From: a virus
IMG/VR virus record: IMGVR_UViG_3300031463_000543
Span: 1-30,295 of that record
Length of the DNA stretch: 30,295 nt
Reading direction: 5' to 3' (one strand)
Part shown: one piece after another, positions 8,505-30,295 of the stretch
How the letters are laid out: every line of letters begins with the position of its first letter
Position numbering within the stretch: the first letter of the stretch is position 1
Position numbers and translations under genes: made by a program
The notes under the pieces: generated by a model
What the model was told of the DNA's origin: nothing
What the model saw: only the letters and a program-made list of their open reading frames with translations
Database searches by the model: none

Positions 8505-9089
8505 ATGGCGATTGACGCGACGGTAGGAGGGGAGACCAGCAACAGCTACGTCACGCTGGAGGAGGCGGAGGCCTACTTCGCCGACCGGCTGCGCGCCGAC
8601 GCGTGGGCGGGCGCCTCGGAGGCTGATCGGGAGAAGGCGCTGCTGCAGGCCTGTCGCCACATCGAGCGCGGTCGGCCGCTGGTGAATCGCCGGCCCTACG
8701 GCTATCCCACCGTGCCGGCCGAGAGCCTGGCCTACGACTCGCTGGCCCCGTCCAATCCCAATCAGGCGCTGTCGTTTCCTCGCAAGAAGGACAAGGACAG
8801 CGGCGGTGACTACGCCATCCCGCAGCCGGTGAAGGACGCGCAGTGCGAGGAGGCGCTGGCGCTGCTGGCGCGAGGGGCTGAGCAGGAGCGCCGCGCGGCC
8901 CTGCAGGCGGCCGGCGTGACTTCCTTCTCGGTGGACGGACTAAGCGAGACCTACGCGGCCGGCGCAAGTCAGCATCCGCTGCTGAGCGCCGAGGCCAGGG
9001 CGCTGCTCGCGCCCTACCTGCGTCGGGGCGGCGTGATCGCCACCTCCGACATGCCAGATGGCGAGTGGTCGCCGGGGAGCGCCTCGTGA
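8505..9089 (+). CDS. Head-tail connector (DnaT-like/gp6-like adaptor)
   Basis: 194 residues from ATG 8505. The opening TSNSYVTLEEAEAYFADRL, the helix DREKALLQACRHIE and the NQALSFPRKKDKD segment followed by IPQPVKDAQCEEALALL match the helical adaptor proteins annotated in phages as DnaT-like or gp6-like connectors, which bind under the portal. Length and position (first gene after the capsid block) agree. Its TGA overlaps the next GTG start. Expected role: head completion after DNA packaging. Confidence 0.8.
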   Translation: MAIDATVGGETSNSYVTLEEAEAYFADRLRADAWAGASEADREKALLQACRHIERGRPLVNRRPYGYPTVPAESLAYDSLAPSNPNQALSFPRKKDKDSGGDYAIPQPVKDAQCEEALALLARGAEQERRAALQAAGVTSFSVDGLSETYAAGASQHPLLSAEARALLAPYLRRGGVIATSDMPDGEWSPGSAS

Positions 9090-9391
9090 TCAACGACTAC
9101 CTGGCCCAGAGCCTCTGGCGCAAGCCGAGGACGGGCACGGATGGCTACGGCCAGCCAAGCTTCGGCTCGGCAGTTCAGACCAAAGGCCGCTGGCTCGAGA
9201 AGCGCCGGCTGGTGCGCAACGCCGAGGGAGAGCAGGTGGTCTCGGAGGTGACCGTGACGCTGGCGCCGGATGAGGAGGTCGCGGTTGGAGATCAGCTCTC
9301 CTCGGACGGATCGACCTACCTGACTGTGATTGCCGTCTCGGTCTCCCGCGGGCTGGCAGGAGACGCGCTGACAAGGAGGGCGTACCTATGA
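9086..9391 (+). CDS. Head closure (stopper-like) protein
   Basis: 101 residues from GTG 9086, which overlaps the adaptor stop (GTGA) and has GGGGAG upstream; an in-frame GTG at 9065 is less likely. The sequence begins INDYLAQSLWRKPRTGTDGY and continues as a beta-rich small domain (GRWLEKRRLVRNAEGEQVVS, then VAVGDQL), a pattern seen in head closure proteins that plug the capsid after packaging. The next gene starts at ATG 9388 with a four-base overlap. Confidence 0.7.
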   Translation: MINDYLAQSLWRKPRTGTDGYGQPSFGSAVQTKGRWLEKRRLVRNAEGEQVVSEVTVTLAPDEEVAVGDQLSSDGSTYLTVIAVSVSRGLAGDALTRRAYL

Positions 9392-9594
9392 GCCTATTGT
9401 CGGAGTGGATCGAGAAGCGATTCCGCCGCCGTGCCCGCGAGTGGCTGCTGGACGCGGCCACGTCGCAGGCGATCCTTACCGCGCCGCCGGTGCAGGAGTG
9501 GCTCGCCACGCAGTCGGCGCGGAGTCGGGCCGCGGTGATCGAGGCTTTGCCGAGGATACTGGCCGCGATAGCGGACAACTGGTTCGGAGGATGA
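9388..9594 (+). CDS. Small helical protein in the connector module
   Basis: 68 residues from ATG 9388, coupled by ATGA to the closure gene. It is a basic amphipathic protein (KRFRRRAREWLLDAATSQA, then a hydrophobic C-terminal half ending ADNWFGG), likely two helices with a possible membrane-contacting end. No family is recognised. It is followed four bases later by a small membrane protein, which suggests the two act together. Confidence 0.6.
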   Translation: MSLLSEWIEKRFRRRAREWLLDAATSQAILTAPPVQEWLATQSARSRAAVIEALPRILAAIADNWFGG

Positions 9595-9598
9595 CGAG

Positions 9599-9778
9599 AT
9601 GAACTGGCGATTGACGCTGACGAAGGGGCTTGTGGTTGGCGCGCTCGCCGCGCTAGGCGTCTGGCTGGGGGATGTCCAGTCAGTGTCCGCCTGGTGGGCG
9701 GGCCTGGCGGTGCTAGGCATCGAAGCCGTGCGCGACCTGATCAAGGCGCGCTTCGGGAGCTTCGCCCCCAGCGGATGA
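9599..9778 (+). CDS. Small two-helix membrane protein
   Basis: 59 residues from ATG 9599, with GGAGGATGACGAG directly upstream. It reads MNWRLTLTKGLVVGALAALG, then SAWWAGLAVLGIEAVRDLI. Two hydrophobic stretches (about residues 9-24 and 30-46) are separated by a short polar GDVQ turn, and a basic tail follows, so a hairpin inner-membrane topology is likely. Membrane proteins are not expected in the head-tail connector block, where neighbours are virion proteins. A holin-like, pinholin-like or superinfection-exclusion role is possible but unproven. Confidence 0.65.
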   Translation: MNWRLTLTKGLVVGALAALGVWLGDVQSVSAWWAGLAVLGIEAVRDLIKARFGSFAPSG

Positions 9779-9782
9779 TCTC

Positions 9783-10286
9783 ATGCCCGCCATCCGCCGC
9801 CAGGCATACGGCAAGTTCGGGGTCGCCTTCAGCGGGCTGGAGGAGCTCTCGCGCCACCTCGCCCGCGACGGCGAGGCGTGGCAGCGCGTGCAGCAGGCCG
9901 CAGTGCGTGGCATGATCGAGAACACTGAGGACTTGCTGGGCCGCGCCATGCGGGACGCGCCGGTTGACGAAGGGACGCTGCGGGCAAGCGGCCACGCGGA
10001 GGTCTTCGCGAACGGCAGAGCAGTCGCTCGCCGCGGCTTCCGCGAGGTCGCCGGCCAGCCGGAGGCTCCGAAGATGGTGGAGCGCAAGGTGGTCGAGGGC
10101 GGCCTCGGCGACGCGGTGGTGGGCGAGGTCGGGTTCAACACTCCCTACGCGCTCGTGCAGCATGAGCGCCTGGACTTCAATCATCCCAAGGGCGGGAAGG
10201 CCAAGTACCTTGAGGCCAACCTCGAGCAGCAGGCCGACCGTTACCAGGGCAACCTGGAGGACCACTTGCGAGGGGCGCTTGCATGA
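9783..10286 (+). CDS. Neck/tail completion protein (HK97 gp10-like)
   Basis: 167 residues from ATG 9783. The arrangement of an N-terminal helix (GLEELSRHLARDGEAWQRVQ), the APVDEGTLRASGHAEV segment and the late GFNTPYALVQHERLDFNHPK stretch is characteristic of HK97 gp10-like neck proteins, in which the PVDxGxLR and YAxxxxxG/H elements recur. They join the closed head to the tail. The TGA overlaps the next ATG by four bases. Confidence 0.8.
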   Translation: MPAIRRQAYGKFGVAFSGLEELSRHLARDGEAWQRVQQAAVRGMIENTEDLLGRAMRDAPVDEGTLRASGHAEVFANGRAVARRGFREVAGQPEAPKMVERKVVEGGLGDAVVGEVGFNTPYALVQHERLDFNHPKGGKAKYLEANLEQQADRYQGNLEDHLRGALA

Positions 10287-10687
10287 GCCTGCTCGTCGAC
10301 CAACTCGCAGCTTATCTGGCGACTCAGGGCGAGGGAGCGGTAGGGACTGATCTGTTCAAGCTCCACCGGCCCCCCTCTCCGCTGGCCTGTGTGAGCCTGC
10401 ACGCCACCGGCGGCTATCCGCCTGACGCCTACACCGAGCGGGAGCGGCCGACGGTGATGTTGTTCGCACGGGCCGCCACGCCAGACGCCGCGCTGCGGAA
10501 GGCCTACAGCCTCTACGGCAAGCTGCACGGCAGGCAGAATGTGGACCTGGGCGGAGGCCTCTGGGCTCTGACCATCGAGGCGGTTGCGAGTCCGGCCTAC
10601 ATAGGCACGGAGCAGGCGGCGAATGCGACCGCGCACCTCGCATCTATCAACATCGCCCTCGATCTGAGGACCGCGTCCACGCCATAG
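10283..10687 (+). CDS. Tail terminator-like protein
   Basis: 134 residues from ATG 10283, coupled by ATGA. The alternation of an N-terminal helix (LLVDQLAAYLATQGEG), a strand ending LHRPPSPLACVSLHATGG, and RPTVMLFARAATPDAALRKA followed by YSLYGKLHG agrees with minor capsid/tail terminator proteins that cap the tail tube and set its length. The position immediately upstream of the tail tube gene supports this. The following 41 bases hold only the ribosome-binding site of the next gene. Confidence 0.75.
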   Translation: MSLLVDQLAAYLATQGEGAVGTDLFKLHRPPSPLACVSLHATGGYPPDAYTERERPTVMLFARAATPDAALRKAYSLYGKLHGRQNVDLGGGLWALTIEAVASPAYIGTEQAANATAHLASINIALDLRTASTP

Positions 10688-10728
10688 GCGGGCAGGCCTC
10701 ATGAGCGCGGGCAACTGGAGGAACTGAC

Positions 10729-11538
10729 GTGGCAACGATCACAGACGTGAAGCCTTCCTACGGGAAGGTGGGCGAGAACATCACCATCATCGGCACCGGG
10801 TTCTCGGATTCGCCGAGCAAGAGCGTGGTGTTCAAGCGCAAGCACGGCGATGCGACCTGGGACGTGGTCGACGCGGCCAACGTCACCTACGTCTCGGCCA
10901 CCGAGCTGACCGTGGCGCTCGCGGCCGGCGACTCATGGGACGCGGGCATGAACGACATCGGCGTCTCGGACAGCGGGGAGAGCACCCCTGACGGCAGCAT
11001 CGCCCAGGCGCTCTTCTTCTACGTGGCCGGGGTGTCCGACCCCGACGCGGTGATCAAGGGCGCGCCGGAGGCGATCTATATCGAGGGCCGCTACATGGGC
11101 CACTCCCACGGCGGCCTCGACATCGACCACGAAGTCGAGACCTCCGACATCGAGACCGACCAGTCGCTGGTGCCGGTGCGCACGGTGAAGGTCGGTGAGA
11201 CCTACTCCCTGTCGGTCCCGCTGGCTGAGGTGACTCTGGAGAACCTCAAGGACGTCTGGGGCATCTCGGCCAACATCGAGGAGCTCGACGAGGACCGGCG
11301 GCGGCTCACCTTCGGCGGCGACACGGCGATCACCGAGAAGTCGGTGATGCTCGTGCTGCCGGCCGGCAGCGGGAAGAAGTGGGCGGTCACCTTCTACCGC
11401 TGCGCGATCGTCGCGCCGGGGACGCTCTCCTGGAACCGCGACGACCAGGTCGACCTGCCGCTCAAGATCACGATCCTGGCCGACACCAGTCGGTCGGTGG
11501 GCGACCAAGTCGGACGCGTCGAGGAGTACGCCGCCTAG
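10729..11538 (+). CDS. Major tail tube protein with N-terminal IPT/TIG domain
   Basis: 269 residues from GTG 10729 (GGAGGA lies 8-9 bases upstream). Residues about 2-95 are an immunoglobulin-like IPT/TIG domain: ITDVKPSYGKVGENITIIGTGFS-like opening, SATELTVALAAGDSWDAG, then NDIGVSDSG. The remainder, beginning around PEAIYIEGRYMGHSHGGLDI and including VGETYSLSVPLAEVTLENL, is the tube-forming part that stacks as hexamers. Extra Ig domains are common on tail tube proteins but usually C-terminal (BIG2-like). Here the domain precedes the tube fold. It is probably exposed on the tail surface. Expression should be high. Confidence 0.8.
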   Translation: MATITDVKPSYGKVGENITIIGTGFSDSPSKSVVFKRKHGDATWDVVDAANVTYVSATELTVALAAGDSWDAGMNDIGVSDSGESTPDGSIAQALFFYVAGVSDPDAVIKGAPEAIYIEGRYMGHSHGGLDIDHEVETSDIETDQSLVPVRTVKVGETYSLSVPLAEVTLENLKDVWGISANIEELDEDRRRLTFGGDTAITEKSVMLVLPAGSGKKWAVTFYRCAIVAPGTLSWNRDDQVDLPLKITILADTSRSVGDQVGRVEEYAA

Positions 11539-23068: not shown

Positions 23069-23335
23069 ATGCCTGAGAAGGTGCTGGAGTACGGACTGGC
23101 CGGCCTGGTGATGGCGGGGACATTCTACCTGGTGGTGCAGCCGCTGGTGCGGGGCGTGCTCGGCCAGCTCGAGCGCGCCCAGGAGGAGATCAGCGCGCAG
23201 CGCGAGGAGCGCATGCAGGTGTGCGCGCGCCACCACGAGTTCCACCGGGCCATGCAGGAGGCGATGCAGGGCCTGCTTCGTTCCGTGGACGCGCTCGTGC
23301 GCAGGGCGAATGGAGGCGGACGATGCGGCCCATAG
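23069..23335 (+). CDS. Holin-like membrane protein
   Basis: 88 residues from ATG 23069 (GGGAGA upstream). Residues about 8-30 (YGLAGLVMAGTFYLVVQPLV) form one clear transmembrane helix. The rest is a charged coiled coil (QLERAQEEISAQREERMQVC, HEFHRAMQEAMQGLLRSVDA). The position directly before the amidase, with a 13-base overlap, is the usual holin place. A single-TM protein with a cytoplasmic or periplasmic coiled coil could also be a spanin-like or amidase-helper protein; I favour holin because of the gene order. Confidence 0.6.
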   Translation: MPEKVLEYGLAGLVMAGTFYLVVQPLVRGVLGQLERAQEEISAQREERMQVCARHHEFHRAMQEAMQGLLRSVDALVRRANGGGRCGP

Positions 23336-23757
23336 ATATGGTGATCATCCACCAGACCGGGACCGCGACCGGCACCGTCGAGTCGGTCCGCCGCTACCAC
23401 ATGCAGATCCTTGGCTGGTCTGATATTGGCTATCACTACCTAATCACCCGTGATGGTGAGGTGCACAAGGGCCGGCCGAACAGTCAGGTCGGCGCGCACT
23501 GCAAGGGCGACAACGCCACCAGCCTCGGGGTGTGCTGCGTGGGGAAGGGCGACGCGCTGCCGGTGGGGGCGGGCTACATGAAGCAGGTGATGTGGGACAG
23601 CCTCCTCGTGCTCGTACGGCAACTGATCTCTGCCTATCACATCCCGATCGGCCGCGTTGTTGGACATAGGGAGCGGCCGTCCGGGCAGGAGCAGGGTAAG
23701 ACTTGCCCGGGCTTCGACGTGGCTATCATCCGCAGCCTGCTGCGCGACCGCGGGTAG
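23323..23757 (+). CDS. N-acetylmuramoyl-L-alanine amidase (endolysin)
   Basis: 144 residues from ATG 23323 (GGAGGCGGACG upstream), the T7-lysozyme-type amidase_2 fold. It cleaves the bond between N-acetylmuramic acid and L-alanine in peptidoglycan. The zinc ligands can be placed at His10 (in VIIHQTG), His115 (in VGHRE) and Cys128 (in GKTCPG); catalytic Tyr37 (in IGYHYL) and Lys126 agree with T7 lysozyme. Length matches the compact family. There is no signal peptide, so export would rely on the holin. It starts inside the 3' end of the holin gene. Confidence 0.9.
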   Translation: MRPIDMVIIHQTGTATGTVESVRRYHMQILGWSDIGYHYLITRDGEVHKGRPNSQVGAHCKGDNATSLGVCCVGKGDALPVGAGYMKQVMWDSLLVLVRQLISAYHIPIGRVVGHRERPSGQEQGKTCPGFDVAIIRSLLRDRG

Positions 23758-23837
23758 GTCCACCAGGCGGCATCCGCTCTCCCTGGCCTCGCCGCGGCGC
23801 CCTCATAGGCCCTCATCCACCCCTTCCTCTCCCCTGG

Positions 23838-23874
23838 GGCGCGCCGGCCCGGTTCTCACCTGGGCCGGCGCGCC
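23838..23874 (+). terminator. Perfect 13-bp hairpin after the lysis genes
   Basis: GGCGCGCCGGCCC (23838-23850) pairs perfectly with GGGCCGGCGCGCC (23862-23874) with an 11-base loop. There is no U-run after it, so it is a strong structure but not a textbook intrinsic terminator. It ends the lysis operon and precedes the amidoligase gene. The rest of 23758-24013 holds no ORF I would support, only CCCTCAT repeated twice near 23800-23820. Confidence 0.55.
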
Positions 23875-24013
23875 GCCGTTCCTCGCCCTGGACGGCGCCA
23901 CGTTCGCCCACGCGCCCCACAGATTCTTCTTGACTCACGGCGCGGTTCGAGGCATGAACATGGTGGATTACCAAACGCCTGCCAGCAGAGCAGGCAAGCG
24001 ACCGGAGGCAGGG

Positions 24014-24970
24014 GTGAAGCAGACCCAGACAGCAAGCGGGAAGGCAGAGGGATACACCTGGGGCGTCGAGATCGAGTGCTTCCTGCCCGACCAGGTGGTC
24101 AGGGACGTGGGCATCTACATCGGCGCCTACCACCACGGCTACCCGCTGCCGTCGCCCTTCCCGCAGGGATGGACGGCGGAGCGAGACGGCAGCCTTCACA
24201 CTGACCGGCGGGGCTACGTCCCCGTCGAGATCGTGAGCCCCATCCTGCGGGGCCGGGCCGGGATCGAGCAGGTCAAGCAGGTCGCCCAGACGCTCAAGGG
24301 CCTGGGGGCGGTGGTCAATCCGCTCTGCGGATTCCATGTCCACATCGGTGCGGCGAGCGTCGCCGGCCCGGGGTTCGCTGCGATCGCCGAGTGGGTCGCA
24401 AAGCTGCTGTACCATGTGGCGATGCACGAGACGGCGCTGTACGCATCCACCGGCACGCACAGCCGGGAGAACGGGCGCTTCGCCCGCAGCATCAAGGAGC
24501 AGAAGCGGACCGCCGACAGAGTGCGTCGCGCGCCGGATGCCCGCAAGCGCGATGCCCTCGAGGATGAGATCCACTGGCTGGATCGCTACCGCACCCTCAA
24601 CCTCAGGAACCTGTTCAGACCCAAGGCGACAGTCGAGTTCCGGGTGTTCGCAGGGACGGTCGAGTGGGCGAAGATGGTCGGCCACATCTGCACCTGCCTC
24701 GCCCTGGCCGAGCGGGCCACCGAGCCGGCGAAGATGGACTGGGACGGGCTGGCGAGCCAGCGCACCTACAAGGTGCGGGGGCGGGGCCTGCGGGAGCTGA
24801 ACCGGTTCTTCTACCTGACGGGCTGGACGCTGGGCCGCCGGGATGTCGGCAAGCCGCAGGTCGAGATGGCCGGCTGGATTGCTGACCTGGCTGACCTGAA
24901 GCCGGTGATGCGCGAGCTGCGGCGGCTGGCGCGGAAGTACGACGGGGCCGGAGCCGAGGGAAGGGACTGA
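24014..24970 (+). CDS. Amidoligase (COOH-NH2 ligase, glutamine-synthetase-like)
   Basis: 318 residues from GTG 24014, chosen because GGAGG at 24004-24008 lies five bases before it; ATG 23954 is in frame but has only a weak site. Motifs of the amidoligase family: GVEIEC (Glu19, Glu21), PVEIVSP (Glu72), GFHVHIG (His108, His110) and VEFRVFAGT (Glu208, Arg210), which form the ATP/metal-binding site of the GS-like fold. Such enzymes join a carboxylate to an amine with ATP and are known in phages and bacteria, often next to a class II glutamine amidotransferase, as here one base downstream. Substrate is unknown: peptidoglycan peptides or a protein tail are proposed for relatives. Confidence 0.85.
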   Translation: MKQTQTASGKAEGYTWGVEIECFLPDQVVRDVGIYIGAYHHGYPLPSPFPQGWTAERDGSLHTDRRGYVPVEIVSPILRGRAGIEQVKQVAQTLKGLGAVVNPLCGFHVHIGAASVAGPGFAAIAEWVAKLLYHVAMHETALYASTGTHSRENGRFARSIKEQKRTADRVRRAPDARKRDALEDEIHWLDRYRTLNLRNLFRPKATVEFRVFAGTVEWAKMVGHICTCLALAERATEPAKMDWDGLASQRTYKVRGRGLRELNRFFYLTGWTLGRRDVGKPQVEMAGWIADLADLKPVMRELRRLARKYDGAGAEGRD

Positions 24971-24971
24971 G

Positions 24972-25694
24972 ATGTGCGGAGTCTTCGGCTTTATCGGCGC
25001 TTACCGGGCCCAGGAGCGCGACTTGGTGGCCGGCCTCATGATGAAGCTGGCGCTGGCCCACCAGGAGCGGGGCAAGGATGCCAGCGGCTATGCGGCGCTG
25101 ACGGCCGGCGGCGAGCTGCTGTGGGACAAGCAGCCCATGCCGGCGCGGCGGTTCTTCACCGCCCAGAGCTTCACCCCTATCTTCCGTCGGCGCTTGTTGG
25201 CCATGGTCGGCCACACCCGCCGCGCCACGGCCGGCGCGCCGGCCGTCAATGCGAACAACCATCCACACCTGGCCGGCGACTGGGCAGTGGTGCACAATGG
25301 CCACCTCCACGGCCACCGGACGATCGCCCTGACTCACGGCCTGCGCCTGACCTCGGAGTGCGATTCGGAGCTGCTCGCGCGGGCACTCGCCCACTACGGG
25401 GAGATCGACGGCCCGGTACTCTGCCTGGGCATGGGCGGGAGCCAGTCGGTGCTCGCGATCAACCGGCGGCCTCGTCATCTGGTGGCATGGACAAACGGCG
25501 GGCAGCCGCTGGTGGCATTCCGGGCCGAGGGCCTGCCGGGCCTGTGGTGGGCATCGACTAGGGAGATCGCGGCGCGGGCGGTGGATGCGGTCGGGCTGTG
25601 CGCCCGCTACGCGGCGGCCCGGCCGCACCGGGTGTATCGACTCGCGGTGTCCGAGGGGCGGGTGGCGGAGATCGCCGATCCCGGCGAGCCGTAG
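24972..25694 (+). CDS. Class II glutamine amidotransferase (GATase-II)
   Basis: 240 residues from ATG 24972. The nucleophile Cys2 follows Met1 (MCGVFGFIG), and the conserved blocks GHTRRATAG, NANNHPHLAG, VVHNGHLHGH and SECDSELLARAL mark the Ntn-hydrolase glutaminase fold. It would hydrolyse glutamine to glutamate and ammonia for a partner. It begins one base after the amidoligase stop and is therefore probably co-translated with it, giving a two-enzyme unit. It is a stand-alone glutaminase; no synthase domain follows. An alternative role, processing small gamma-glutamyl amides, is possible. Confidence 0.85.
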   Translation: MCGVFGFIGAYRAQERDLVAGLMMKLALAHQERGKDASGYAALTAGGELLWDKQPMPARRFFTAQSFTPIFRRRLLAMVGHTRRATAGAPAVNANNHPHLAGDWAVVHNGHLHGHRTIALTHGLRLTSECDSELLARALAHYGEIDGPVLCLGMGGSQSVLAINRRPRHLVAWTNGGQPLVAFRAEGLPGLWWASTREIAARAVDAVGLCARYAAARPHRVYRLAVSEGRVAEIADPGEP

Positions 25695-25778
25695 GCGGCG
25701 AACTTCGAGTGTGGGTTCTCGGCCAATTGCAGGCAATGTGATGATGACTCAGCCGGACCTCAGAGAGGAGCACGCGAG

Positions 25779-26033
25779 ATGAACGACCGGAAGATGGAGC
25801 GCACCCTGCTGGAGCTCTTCGAGGACATCGCCGGTGACGAGGACGTGCAGGCCGACCTGGGCCAGCCGGCCCTCGCGAATGCCCGCGTAAGAACCTTCGA
25901 GGAGGCGGGAATCCTGACCCGCGACCGTGGCATCGTCCTCACCCTGGAGGACGGCAGCGAGTTCGAGATCACTATCACCCAGACCGTCTGCCTCGAGGGC
26001 GACGACGGCGAGGACGAGGAGGAGGCCAACTGA
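25779..26033 (+). CDS. Small acidic protein downstream of the amidoligase pair
   Basis: 84 residues from ATG 25779, with GAGAGGAG upstream. The first two thirds are helical with an N-terminal MNDRKMERTLLELFEDIAGD, and a strand LTLEDGSEFEITITQT follows. The C-terminus is acidic (EGDDGEDEEEAN). It is the first gene after the amidoligase pair, with an 84-base gap. No family is recognised. It might be a modification substrate or a regulator; nothing in the sequence decides. Confidence 0.6.
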   Translation: MNDRKMERTLLELFEDIAGDEDVQADLGQPALANARVRTFEEAGILTRDRGIVLTLEDGSEFEITITQTVCLEGDDGEDEEEAN

Positions 26034-26034
26034 G

Positions 26035-26259
26035 ATGACGAGTGCAGAGGCAAAGGAGCGCGTCGGGCGGCATCTGCTCAGCAGGGGGTACAGCCGGAAG
26101 GACGGGCAGAAGCACACCTACTACGTCCACCCCGACGGGGAGAGGCGGTATATGCTCACCAGCCGCACGATCAAGCCGCAGAAGCGCTTCGACTGGGGCT
26201 GGGCGAACGTTGGACGGGCCGCCTCGCTGATTGACGTGGCGAAGAGGCTGGGAGAGTGA
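26035..26259 (+). CDS. Hypothetical basic protein, 74 aa
   Basis: 74 residues from ATG 26035, two bases after the previous stop; its ribosome-binding site is the GAGGAGGAGG run at about 26015-26024. It is basic: VGRHLLSRGYSRKDGQKHTY, YYVHPDGERRYMLTSRTIKP, and a helical end. The helix-strand-strand-helix order recalls small RNA-binding folds of the HicA type, but no diagnostic residue is present and I would not assign it. It belongs to a compact block of four small genes. Confidence 0.6.
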   Translation: MTSAEAKERVGRHLLSRGYSRKDGQKHTYYVHPDGERRYMLTSRTIKPQKRFDWGWANVGRAASLIDVAKRLGE

Positions 26260-26272
26260 GGGGGCGGAGCCG

Positions 26273-26485
26273 ATGGGCAGCAACAACCACGGCGAAGATA
26301 AGCGGCAACGCCGTGGGGCACTCTGGCGGCGCACTCGGGAGGCCATCTACAAGGCCGTCAATGCGATATTCAAGCCGCCTCCGCCGGATGTCATCGAGAA
26401 GATAGAGGACGTCCTTGGGAGAGCGGAACCCGACTGGAAAAGAGAGGAAGAAGAATGCCAAGACGAAGCCAACGAGAAGCCGTAG
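26273..26485 (+). CDS. Hypothetical charged protein, 70 aa
   Basis: 70 residues from ATG 26273 (GGCGGAG upstream). It has a basic N-terminal half (DKRQRRGALWRRTREAIYKA) and an acidic C-terminal half (EKIEDVLGRAEPDWKREEEE). No membrane helix and no known family. Its 3' end overlaps the next gene by 31 bases in another frame. The charge split suggests a helical regulator or binding protein. Confidence 0.5.
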   Translation: MGSNNHGEDKRQRRGALWRRTREAIYKAVNAIFKPPPPDVIEKIEDVLGRAEPDWKREEEECQDEANEKP

Positions 26486-26874
26486 CGGAGCGGGCCGAAG
26501 CCTGCCTGGAGGAGCAGCGCCAGCGGCGGCGGGAAGCGGCGCAACGTGGCGCACAGACGCGCCGACAACGCCGCGAAGCCCAGGCAGCCGAGGCACAGCC
26601 CCAGGCGGGGGCCGAAAGCCGCACACAGGGGCGCGTGGCGCGCCGTTCGCGGCCTCGTGTACATGCTGACCTCGTGACGGTGGCGATTCGCGGCCCCTTC
26701 GCCGAGAGGATGCGGGTGCTATCCGAAAGCACCGGAATGAGCCTGGCCCGGCTGCTCAAGGACGCCCTCCTCGTCTACGAGCGGGACGTTGAGGCGGGCT
26801 ATGAGCCGGGGACAAGCCTGCGGCAGTGGGAGGAGCAAACTGCCAGTGGTGGAGAGCAGGCGCGCGATTCCTGA
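26455..26874 (+). CDS. Ribbon-helix-helix-like protein with Arg-rich N-terminus
   Basis: 139 residues from ATG 26455 (GAGGAAGAAG upstream). The first 70 residues are Arg/Glu/Gln-rich helix (AERAEACLEEQRQRRREAAQ). The segment VTVAIRGPFAERMRVLSEST followed by GMSLARLLKDALLVYERDVE has the strand-helix-helix order of ribbon-helix-helix DNA-binding proteins; the GMSLARLLKDAL part matches the second helix. It may regulate a phage promoter. It is the last rightward gene, and its stop is twelve bases from the stop of the leftward gene. Confidence 0.6.
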   Translation: MPRRSQREAVAERAEACLEEQRQRRREAAQRGAQTRRQRREAQAAEAQPQAGAESRTQGRVARRSRPRVHADLVTVAIRGPFAERMRVLSESTGMSLARLLKDALLVYERDVEAGYEPGTSLRQWEEQTASGGEQARDS

Positions 26875-26886
26875 AAGCGCTCGCTC

Positions 26887-27405
26887 TTATTCGGCAGCTT
26901 TGGCAGCGGCTACCGCCTCAAGCTCCGGGATCAGCTCGTCCGCAAGCCGCACCGCATCTTGCATCGCCCGGGCCGCACTCGTCAGCGCGTCAGCACTCTG
27001 CTGCGGCAGGACCTGGCTCATCCAGCACGCTGCACGGACGCTGTCGACGGCTACCTTCCCGCGGACATAGGCAGTCACGACCTTGACCGCGAGGCTCTGA
27101 GGAAGAAGAGCAAGCTGCGACCCCACCCCGTCATACACCGCGAAGTAATGCTCTTGGGCACTCCAGAACACCGGCCGCGACATGGGCACATACACTGCTC
27201 CGCCGCCATTGATCGGAAGCCCTTGCAGTAACTCGCGGCCCCGGTCTCGCAAAGCCCGCCGCTCGGCGCAGAGCGCTGACGCGAGCCGGCGTCTCTGATC
27301 CTCCACCTCTCGCCGCTCGCGCGACCGCTCCGTGTGCCACGACAGGAACCAGCCTACCACGACACCCAACAGACCAAACAGCCCGCTCACTGCTGCCGTA
27401 AGCAT
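26887..27405 (-). CDS. Membrane-anchored protein downstream of the methyltransferase
   Basis: 172 residues from ATG 27405; the frame also offers ATG 27432, which would overlap the upstream gene by 17 bases and give 181 residues. I prefer 27405 because of the GGGAGGGTGAGG run before it and because the protein then begins with its membrane helix (LTAAVSGLFGLLGVVVGWFL). A basic coiled-coil follows (ERSRERREVEDQRRRLASAL), and the rest is a helical domain that may be cytoplasmic. I do not recognise a family. It is next to and on the same strand as the methyltransferase, so probably in its operon. Function is unknown. Confidence 0.65.
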   Translation of the reverse strand: MLTAAVSGLFGLLGVVVGWFLSWHTERSRERREVEDQRRRLASALCAERRALRDRGRELLQGLPINGGGAVYVPMSRPVFWSAQEHYFAVYDGVGSQLALLPQSLAVKVVTAYVRGKVAVDSVRAACWMSQVLPQQSADALTSAARAMQDAVRLADELIPELEAVAAAKAAE

Positions 27406-27415
27406 CACAACCGCC

Positions 27416-30295
27416 TCACCCTCCCACCTCATACACCTTCAGCACCTCGTCCCCGTAGTGGTTGATGACTTTGATGGCGATCTTGCCGGTTTCGGGTGGG
27501 TCGAAGGGGCGGGAGGTGGTGGAGTAGAGGGTGGCCCAGGCGGCCTCGTCTATCTCGGCCTTCAGGGCGCGCTTGAGCTTCTCATAGGGTTCGTCCGCGC
27601 CGCAGAAGTAGGCGTGGCGGACGAAGAAGGACTCGCCGTCGTAGTTGGTGTCAATGAACCAGCAGGCGATGTCGTCGGTCGAGTGGCTGCGAATCTGGCC
27701 GGTGGTCGGGTCATAGACATCCACGCCCTTGATTTCCACGACCACCTTGCCGTCGCCGTCTCGCCTGATCTCGATGTCCGGCTCGCCGAAGACCATGAAG
27801 AGGTTGGCCGCGCCCGTGCGCTTGAGGAACTCATCGCCCATCGCCAGGTCTGCATTGATGCGCACCAGGAGCACAGGCAACTTCCCGTATTGCTTGGCAG
27901 CCTCGGCGACGGCGAACTCGTCCCGCCTCTTCAGCGTCTCGGGGCTGAATTGCCGCGCTGCCTCTCCCGCATGAGGGTCAAAAGCGAAGCCACACACCAG
28001 CAGCAGGTCAAACCCGACTCCCTGCAGGGCCTCCTTTGCTGCTTCCTTGACCAGGTCCGGCCCGACCGTGCCGTGCTCGGGGCCGATGCAGACAGCGACG
28101 CGCTTCGGCTTGCCCCCCTCCGTGTAGTCGCCAGCGGCCTGGAGATAGAGGCCAGGATATGCCTCCAGCCGCTCGAACTTGAGGCGCTCCTGCTTCACCA
28201 TATTCTGCACGCCGGCTTTGCGCAGGTTTTCGATGATCATGGTCTCGAACTGGCCGGGGCCGGCGGCAGTCTGCGCCTCGGCCTCGGAAGCCGGGCGCTC
28301 GTCATCGGTGGAGAGGACGCGGTGGGGAGACAGACTCTCCACCGTGAACGGCCCACTTACGCGAATGCGCTTGTTGTCCTCATACGGCTGGTCGTAGAGG
28401 AGTTCGGTGTCGGCGTGGCGGGCGATGGAGTCGTCTAGTTCCTTCTGGCGCTGGCGGCGCAGCGCCCACCACTCCTTGAGCAGATTCTCCGCCTCTGAGC
28501 CAGGCTTGATCCCGACCGCCTCAAGGTTCTTGCGGGTCCTCCCCTGTTCCTCGGGGGTCATGTACTCCGAGGGCAGGCGCGGTATCTCCCACTCTTCCCA
28601 GTTCTGCTTGACAGCCTTGTTCAGCCTGGCCCGGATCGGCTCCAGTCTCTCCTGCCAGCGGGCGTGAATCTCGTCTATCTCCTCGTTGTTGGCGATGCTC
28701 TTGAGGGTGATGTGCGGCACGCGCTTGTAAACGAACCCCTTGCGGATGTCTCCCTCTGTCTGCGGCAGCGGACTGGGCGGCACGCGCCCCGTGATCTCGG
28801 CCTCCTTCATGATTCCTTCGGGAGAGTCTGCCAGCAGGTAGTAGGGATAGCGGGCGGACATCAGGCGGGTGCGGGCGAGGGTCAATGCGACGCGGCTGGT
28901 GTCAATCGTGATCCAGCGCCGGCCCCATTGCTCGGCCACGAAGGCGGTAGTCCCAGAGCCGCAGGTGGGGTCGAGGACGAGGTCGCCGGGGTCGGTGGCC
29001 ATAAGGATGCACCGCTCCACGACCTTCGTGGCAGTCTGCACAACGAACACCATGTCAGACGCGCCGATGGTGTCGACCCAGAGATTGGTCAGGTCCTGCA
29101 CGGGGAAGTCAGATGCATACTGTATGTAGCGTGGAATTCGCCGCGTGTCCAGTAGCCGATCAGCCGCGATCAGCCTGTGCATGCCCTCTACATGCGTGCG
29201 CCAGCTCTTGGGCTGCGCTGGGATCACGCGGCCCCGGAACTCGAAGTCGTAGGTGCAGGACTCAGTATACCCGGATGACTTGAGGTCGCTGCTTGTGTAG
29301 AACCTAAGATTCTCCACGCCGGACTCTGGAGCGCGATCGCCGCCCACACCCTCCTCAGTATGGGCGGTCCGGTAGAGAGTCCCCTCTCCCACATCCTTGG
29401 GCATGAAGAGCCCATGGTACTTGTACATAGGACGATCCTTCGCGTACCAGAGAAGGGTGTCGTAGATCGCGCCGAGACCGGCCGAGCCGAGTGGCAGGGT
29501 TTTCCGGAATGCAATCTGGCATACAAAGTTATCACTCCCGAACACCTCATCTAACACGCAGCGTACCACGTGGACATTCTCGTCGCCGATCTGCACGAAT
29601 ATGGAGCCAGTCTCGGTGAGGAGGTCGCGGGCGACCTGGAGACGGTCCCGCCAGTAGGCGAGGTAGGAGTGGATGCCCAGTTTCCAGGTGTCCCGGAAGG
29701 CCCGAATCTGTTCCGGTTCGCGGGTGGCGTCTTCAACCTTGCCGTCTTTCACATCCCGTTTGCGCGTGCTCACCTGCCAGTTCGAGCCGAACTTGATGCC
29801 ATAGGGCGGGTCCATATAGATCATCTGGACCTTGCCCTTGAGGCCCTCTTTCTCGGCAAGGGAGGTCATCACCAGCAGCGAGTCGCCCAGGATCATGCGG
29901 TTCGCCCAGTTCTGCTGGTGCTGGTAGAACTCGACCTTCTTCTCGAAGTCATCCAGCCCGTTGAAATCGTCGAAAAGCCTCAGCTCAGGCTCCTGCTCAC
30001 CGGCCCGCGCGGTTTGGCGCAGATTCTCGATCAGCGCCTGGGGATGGATCTTCTCCTGGATGTAGATGGGAACCGCGGGCACCTCCAGGGGATGGCTGTC
30101 CTGCTCGTCCTTGCCTTTCCAGACCAGTTGGGGATCGAGCGACGGATCGCGAGGGTAGAGAATGGTCTTCGGCGCCTTCTCCTCTTCGGCCACGAAATCG
30201 CGCAGTTCCGTGGTGGGGATGTTGGTGCGCTTGTCCTTGTGGCGGACGGACTCGACGGGTGTGTGCGAGCCCCGGTTCCTGCTCTTGCGGGCCAT
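27416..30295 (-). CDS. Beta-class DNA methyltransferase (type III Mod-like)
   Basis: 959 residues; ATG is the last codon of the window (30293-30295), and the true start could lie further out, though MARKSRNRGSHTP looks like a beginning. Motif IV DPPY is at 162-165 (YMDPPYGIKFGSNW) and the AdoMet-binding motif I DPTCGSGTT at 442-450. The order IV, target-recognition region (about 240-435), I is that of beta-class N6-adenine or N4-cytosine methyltransferases, including type III Mod subunits. A C-terminal region of about 250 residues (FETMIIENLRKAGVQNMVKQ to KVINHYGDEVLKVYEVGG) is extra. No restriction (Res) gene is in view; it may lie beyond the window. Could be phage or host. Confidence 0.85.
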   Translation of the reverse strand: MARKSRNRGSHTPVESVRHKDKRTNIPTTELRDFVAEEEKAPKTILYPRDPSLDPQLVWKGKDEQDSHPLEVPAVPIYIQEKIHPQALIENLRQTARAGEQEPELRLFDDFNGLDDFEKKVEFYQHQQNWANRMILGDSLLVMTSLAEKEGLKGKVQMIYMDPPYGIKFGSNWQVSTRKRDVKDGKVEDATREPEQIRAFRDTWKLGIHSYLAYWRDRLQVARDLLTETGSIFVQIGDENVHVVRCVLDEVFGSDNFVCQIAFRKTLPLGSAGLGAIYDTLLWYAKDRPMYKYHGLFMPKDVGEGTLYRTAHTEEGVGGDRAPESGVENLRFYTSSDLKSSGYTESCTYDFEFRGRVIPAQPKSWRTHVEGMHRLIAADRLLDTRRIPRYIQYASDFPVQDLTNLWVDTIGASDMVFVVQTATKVVERCILMATDPGDLVLDPTCGSGTTAFVAEQWGRRWITIDTSRVALTLARTRLMSARYPYYLLADSPEGIMKEAEITGRVPPSPLPQTEGDIRKGFVYKRVPHITLKSIANNEEIDEIHARWQERLEPIRARLNKAVKQNWEEWEIPRLPSEYMTPEEQGRTRKNLEAVGIKPGSEAENLLKEWWALRRQRQKELDDSIARHADTELLYDQPYEDNKRIRVSGPFTVESLSPHRVLSTDDERPASEAEAQTAAGPGQFETMIIENLRKAGVQNMVKQERLKFERLEAYPGLYLQAAGDYTEGGKPKRVAVCIGPEHGTVGPDLVKEAAKEALQGVGFDLLLVCGFAFDPHAGEAARQFSPETLKRRDEFAVAEAAKQYGKLPVLLVRINADLAMGDEFLKRTGAANLFMVFGEPDIEIRRDGDGKVVVEIKGVDVYDPTTGQIRSHSTDDIACWFIDTNYDGESFFVRHAYFCGADEPYEKLKRALKAEIDEAAWATLYSTTSRPFDPPETGKIAIKVINHYGDEVLKVYEVGG

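Follow-up and report, generated by a model that had tools for sequence, protein, structure and literature searches.

Amidoligase_2 genes in viral and genome-contig loci commonly stand beside one of three unrelated types of partner gene, and the partner has been repeatedly exchanged across the family. The window analyzed here, a linear IMG/VR virus record of 30,295 b that is itself a fragment, carries the minimal two-gene form of this exchangeable-partner arrangement, namely an amidoligase gene followed by a gene for a class II glutamine amidotransferase (GATase). Such pairs have been described in phages before, and the window adds another member to them; of the results, the family-wide partner swapping is the one of greatest interest. 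Amidoligase cassettes are widespread among phages, and a form reduced to two genes whose active sites are intact is the simplest to express and assay. The swapping of partners also confines the search to γ-glutamyl or amide chemistry, which makes the reaction more testable, and it raises the question of whether the substrate of the three partner types is glutamine or the product of the ligase itself.

The two enzymes and their retention in the clade

The first gene of the pair (24014..24970, + strand, GTG24014 to TGA24970) encodes an Amidoligase_2 protein of 318 aa, which matched PF12224 with an E value of 1.9e-24 (87.3 bits against a cutoff of 22). A rival in-frame start, ATG23954, lies upstream, but GTG24014 is preferred because relatives start at the same residue (MAQTQxASSKAE), and the choice of the GTG start in an earlier note on this DNA is thus well supported. 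Ten residues (G17, E19, E21, D58, E72, S75, H108, N196, E208, and R210) are invariant in 54 sequences with identities down to ~25%, and H110 is invariant too in a smaller set with LUZ24-type and Arthrobacter proteins. A PDB sequence search with the amidoligase profile returned nothing at E values up to 1, and the fold was therefore established through structure. The AlphaFold (AF2) model (pLDDT 94.5) aligned with YbdK (Z 13.7, 4.8 Å over 246, most of the protein being covered), plant glutamate–cysteine ligase (Z 13.2), and glutamine synthetases (about Z 13), and the predicted fold is that of the glutamine-synthetase/glutamate–cysteine-ligase (GS/GCL) superfamily. The product is a GS/GCL-fold carboxylate-amine ligase, presumably ATP-dependent. 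Searches of PADLOC and NCBIfam gave no family for the amidoligase and no defense model for either the amidoligase or the GATase, and no biochemically tested Amidoligase_2 member was found in the literature searched.

The second gene (24972..25694, + strand, ATG24972 to TAG25694) encodes a protein of 240 aa with a class II (Ntn) glutamine amidotransferase domain and Cys2 as the nucleophile; its match to GATase_6 (PF13522) had an E value of 7e-10 (39 bits against a cutoff of 27). The invariant residues are C2, R83, T86, N95, N96, H97, N109, G110, and D131. Cys directly follows Met (M1-C2) in the window protein and in all partners checked, and the glutamine-pocket residues (R83, T86, N96-H97-P98, N109-G110, and D131) are present and align with GlmS. 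The AF2 model (pLDDT 95.0) has a PurF/GlmS-type Ntn glutaminase fold and matched PurF with Z 26.6 (2.3 Å over 216 residues), GlmS with Z 26.3, and EgtC with Z 21.8. Sequence comparison gave the same order (GlmS 2.5e-30, EgtC 5e-9), and by both measures the window GATase is not closer to EgtC than to the glutaminases. Nothing in the residues or the predicted models suggests a dead enzyme in either gene.

A single base (G at 24971, + strand, in TGA-G-ATG) separates the two genes, and the same spacer occurs in L003, L004, L007, L009, and L114. In L005 the two genes overlap by one base, and in L002, L006, L008, and L022 small ORFs are inserted between them. The spacing in the window would fit translational coupling. 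A GATase gene was found 0–549 bases downstream of the ligase gene in 10/10 relatives at 66–79% identity (L002–L009, L022, and L114). Third codon positions diverge fastest in both, as is expected of selected protein-coding genes. For L057, L059, and L060, the nearest outgroup with a ligase identity of 46–48%, no recognizable partner was found in the flank examined (1.8–5 kb downstream). Fixation of the pair is therefore limited to the clade and does not extend to the family. The nearest relative of the window differs by gene, being L003 for the ligase (78–79%) and L008 for the GATase (79%, with only 56% to L003); it is possible that members of the clade exchanged the ligase and the GATase independently of each other.

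The earlier note had described two enzymes of these families lying one base apart, and this is confirmed by the coordinates on the + strand, the Pfam matches, and the folds. Its reading of the genes as a two-component system and its statement that no substrate has been settled are likewise supported. It had also considered that active-site residues might be missing in relatives, where they proved to be invariant, and that the pair might rarely be kept together. The latter does not hold among relatives at 66% identity or more, all of which keep both genes, but beyond the clade a different gene often takes the place of the class II GATase, and three outgroup loci are partnerless.

Exchange of the partner gene across the family

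Collections were scanned with a four-sequence profile, which worked where a broad 11-sequence profile was too divergent, and 80 viral and 35 genome-contig loci were obtained. After the removal of ligases with ≥90% identity, 82 loci were kept; nine phage records that had been found via annotation were set aside. Partner genes were sought within 2 kb of the ligase with local HMMs, and representatives were checked by Pfam. A class II GATase was the neighbor at 44/82 loci, a class I/Peptidase_C26 GATase at 9/82, and a γ-glutamyl cyclotransferase (GGCT/GGACT) at 15/82, of which 12 had the cyclotransferase alone, two had it with a class II GATase, and one with C26. At least one partner type was present in 45 of the 50 viral loci with enough downstream sequence and in 20 of 29 genome loci. 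The partner matches were concentrated close to the ligase, with 68 within 2 kb, all on the ligase strand, and three at 2–5 kb (binomial test, p of about 1e-21, a value that ignores relatedness). This near/far comparison within amidoligase loci served as the main control because a background of loci centered on the large terminase (TerL) was too small; it comprised only 12 loci, nine of which lack an amidoligase and likewise any partner-type gene, the sole match being L108's own record.

Class I and class II GATases occurred together in none of the 82 loci, and such mutual exclusion is expected if either supplies the same function; the larger LUZ24-type cassettes have both. Catalytic motifs were conserved throughout, with Cys after Met in 53/53 class II partners (47 by motif and six read as MCC) and the CRG motif in 13/13 C26 proteins. 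When partner labels were placed on the ligase tree, 14 changes were counted; the minimum possible is 6, and shuffling the labels gave 26. Strongly supported branches force at least three changes for C26 and at least four for class II, and the partner has thus been exchanged repeatedly. The tree was built by a quick method, and the label shuffles show clustering only.

Class II Ntn glutaminases, PuuD-type (C26) hydrolases, and γ-glutamyl cyclotransferases have unrelated folds, and each includes families that cut γ-glutamyl amides. Swapping among these three partner types ties the ligase to γ-glutamyl chemistry, either through ammonia supply, which is favored, or through a cycle in which a γ-glutamyl group is put on and later taken off. 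We tentatively propose, at somewhat less than an even chance, that Amidoligase_2 is a platform for γ-glutamyl chemistry on which any of the three folds fills one required role, the breakage of a γ-glutamyl amide, so that the partners would be functionally equivalent. The partner-swap pattern was not found in the literature searched, and the 2009 survey by Iyer and colleagues, to whose work functional proposals for phage amidoligase cassettes reportedly trace back, may contain part of it.

The survey also yielded several loci with unusual content. A short class II GATase of 172 aa (PF13230) is encoded at L118:6794-7312 and at similar Bacteroidales prophage loci, between the portal and head genes. 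At L105:3473-4492 and L111:3274-4293, amidoligase and GGCT genes adjoin a homologue of PurZ-like adenylosuccinate synthetase (phrog_1211 in L105, by similarity in L111). An Omnitrophota MAG contig (L117:1216-3277) carries two tandem amidoligase genes with no recognized partner. Beside an amidoligase-GGCT locus, L099:316-3207 (- strand) encodes a head-morphogenesis-like protein of 963 aa whose C-terminal part matches an ADP-ribosyltransferase.

Candidate reactions and targets

Amidoligase and GATase genes have been described in LUZ24-like phages (PMC3890496) and in OM43 phages, where they were regarded as a possible wall-modification module (PMC10580990), and a seven-gene "peptidoglycan modification cassette" with GGCT has been described in RIO-1-like phages (PMC5498523). 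No demonstrated product for phage amidoligase cassettes was found in the literature searched. The phiEco32/LUZ24/RIO-1-like cassette consists of Amidoligase_2, a GATase II, a COOH-NH2 ligase, C26, ATP-grasp, and GGCT. It resembles the window in that Amidoligase_2 shares its block and its orientation with a class II GATase (UFV-P2 L029, QDWS535 L026, CW02 L030, and phiM6 L031). However, the window has only two enzymes, its GATase is 240 aa long compared to about 380–590 aa, and its pair follows the late genes, whereas the cassette lies among early genes. Local HMMs for the COOH-NH2 ligase, C26, ATP-grasp, and GGACT detected UFV-P2 L029 and nothing in the window, which is a fragment. GGACT and the COOH-NH2 ligase (PF14395) had no match in the window or in 11 relative records, all fragments, though the PF14395 control matched nowhere. 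A short set closer in size is the GGACT-amidoligase-GATase arrangement of Arthrobacter Laroyevirus and phage Ottawa, in which the GATase lies 78–115 bases after the ligase; it differs in an extra γ-glutamyl cyclotransferase upstream and in a ligase identity to the window of only about 22–27%.

We consider the chances evenly balanced that the pair is a glutamine-dependent amide-forming system. The amidoligase would bind ATP and metal via its Glu/His/Arg cluster and phosphorylate a carboxylate, most plausibly one of glutamyl type. Cys2 of the class II GATase would cleave the γ-amide of glutamine, and the ammonia (or a freed amine) would be passed to the ligase to give a carboxamide. For the window, ammonia supply is favored because its GATase is closest to PurF/GlmS in both sequence and structure and because GATases of class I and class II interchange; the one-base spacing and the location of partner matches on the same strand within 2 kb also speak for it. 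The twelve viral loci that pair the ligase with GGCT only count against ammonia supply, as a γ-glutamyl cyclotransferase is not an ammonia donor, and so do the partnerless outgroup loci L057, L059, and L060. Those GGCT-only loci are the main evidence for a different and less probable, although still quite possible, scheme, in which the ligase links an amine to the γ-carboxylate of glutamate and the resulting γ-glutamyl amide is later cut by the partner. Cleavage of such amides is what the three interchangeable partner families have in common, the nearest solved folds of the ligase are the γ-glutamyl ligases YbdK and GCL, and the glutamine pocket of the GATase would also accept a γ-glutamyl amide. 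PuuA has a GS fold and PuuD is a C26 enzyme. Precedents for putting on and taking off are the γ-glutamyl ligase PuuA and the γ-glutamyl hydrolase PuuD in putrescine use (PMC9397018) and, in ergothioneine synthesis, the GCL-like ligase EgtA with EgtC, which has a class II GATase fold and removes a glutamyl group (PMC9103826); GCL and GGCT act likewise. PuuA/PuuD resembles C26-paired amidoligases such as L056 and L062, but PuuA is a GlnA-type GS and the partner in the window is of class II. EgtA/EgtC is more similar in combining a GCL-superfamily ligase with a stand-alone class II GATase fold. However, EgtC removes γ-glutamyl from a pathway intermediate, whereas the window GATase is nearer to PurF/GlmS, and GGCT sometimes joins a GATase rather than replacing it (L025, L032, and L058), both of which argue against such a cycle. 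A paper on phage AMGs classes such genes as nitrogen metabolism (PMC10945688), but it is quite improbable that the two are an auxiliary nitrogen gene pair without a specific target, or that they travel together through phage kinship alone, given that the two stay linked even where the ligases are far diverged, the genomic contexts unrelated, and the partner fold swapped.

With respect to the target, the earlier note had read the location behind the endolysin as pointing to the wall or envelope, and had alternatively suggested modification of a small phage peptide or of the downstream small proteins. Neither suggestion is supported. Amidation or glutamylation of peptidoglycan side chains to block superinfection would be compatible with either mechanism and has been proposed for the larger phiEco32/LUZ24/RIO-1 cassettes (PMC5498523, PMC10580990). 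We regard it as unlikely here, since the window clade is without the COOH-NH2 ligase, ATP-grasp, C26, and GGACT genes of that cassette and the position of the gene in relatives varies and is not tied to lysis genes. The amidoligase gene lies upstream of TerL in L012, between portal and head genes in L118 (a Bacteroidaceae prophage), beside terminase and ParB-like genes in L057, L059, and L060, and in the early region of LUZ24-like phages. Modification of a small peptide encoded next door is highly improbable. Small ORFs do lie directly downstream of the pair in the window clade, and the ORFs inserted between the two genes in the four relatives mentioned above point the same way, but when ORFs near the ligase were compared all against all, no small family proved common to different clades, and no small protein is a fixed partner. 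The first downstream ORF (25779-26033) was rejected as a fixed peptide substrate, as it is missing in close relatives and, of the eight relatives recovered by scanning collections, seven lie at loci that have no amidoligase.

Genomic setting of the pair

By PHROGs, the late region of the window is siphovirus-like, with the end of a terminase gene, portal, head proteins, a head-tail adaptor, tail proteins, a tape measure, and a baseplate hub. An Amidase_2 endolysin follows (23323..23757, + strand; PF01510, E 2.9e-22; phrog_822, lysis), and a gap of 256 bases separates its end from the start of the amidoligase gene. In the window clade, the pair marks the end of the late genes. A promoter and terminator scan of 23600–26950 gave no signal above shuffles. 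A ParB-like protein was considered as a functional partner and rejected, being within 2.5 kb in just 19/91 loci and also near terminases; it was treated as a packaging-region neighbor, and its proximity probably reflects the location of both genes near packaging genes.

Downstream of the pair, the ORF at 25779-26033 shows the pattern TFxxaGxLTxdrGxVxxxxdGxxFxIT, and the window copy had no match in Pfam or PHROGs. Its family also occurs in distant relatives (L028:6493-6702 and L050:3882-4058) and in L160-L166. Three further small ORFs (26035-26259, 26273-26485, and 26455-26874, + strand) are about 70–87% conserved in L002, L003, L004, and L006. They are conserved in the clade and absent from distant pairs, and were not assigned to the system. 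The last of them (26455-26874) is ribbon-helix-helix-like by eye, with no Pfam match.

Past the last common small ORF, the content varies among relatives of the clade. The window has a type III methyltransferase, whereas at the equivalent place L007 has a type III restriction-like ORF (8658-11054, - strand) and L003 a radical-SAM-like ORF, both recognized by eye. Integrases are present in the records of L008 and L009. We infer that the pair occupies an accessory slot in a temperate phage. A 181-aa protein whose N-terminus is hydrophobic by eye, and which has no family match, is encoded at 26887-27432 (- strand), between the phage genes and the methyltransferase. The type III DNA methyltransferase itself (27416-30295, - strand; PADLOC MTase_III, E 7e-285) is nearly full-length and runs off the contig end. 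It is absent from 9/9 relative records, and this region may represent a prophage/host junction or a phage-borne R-M slot.
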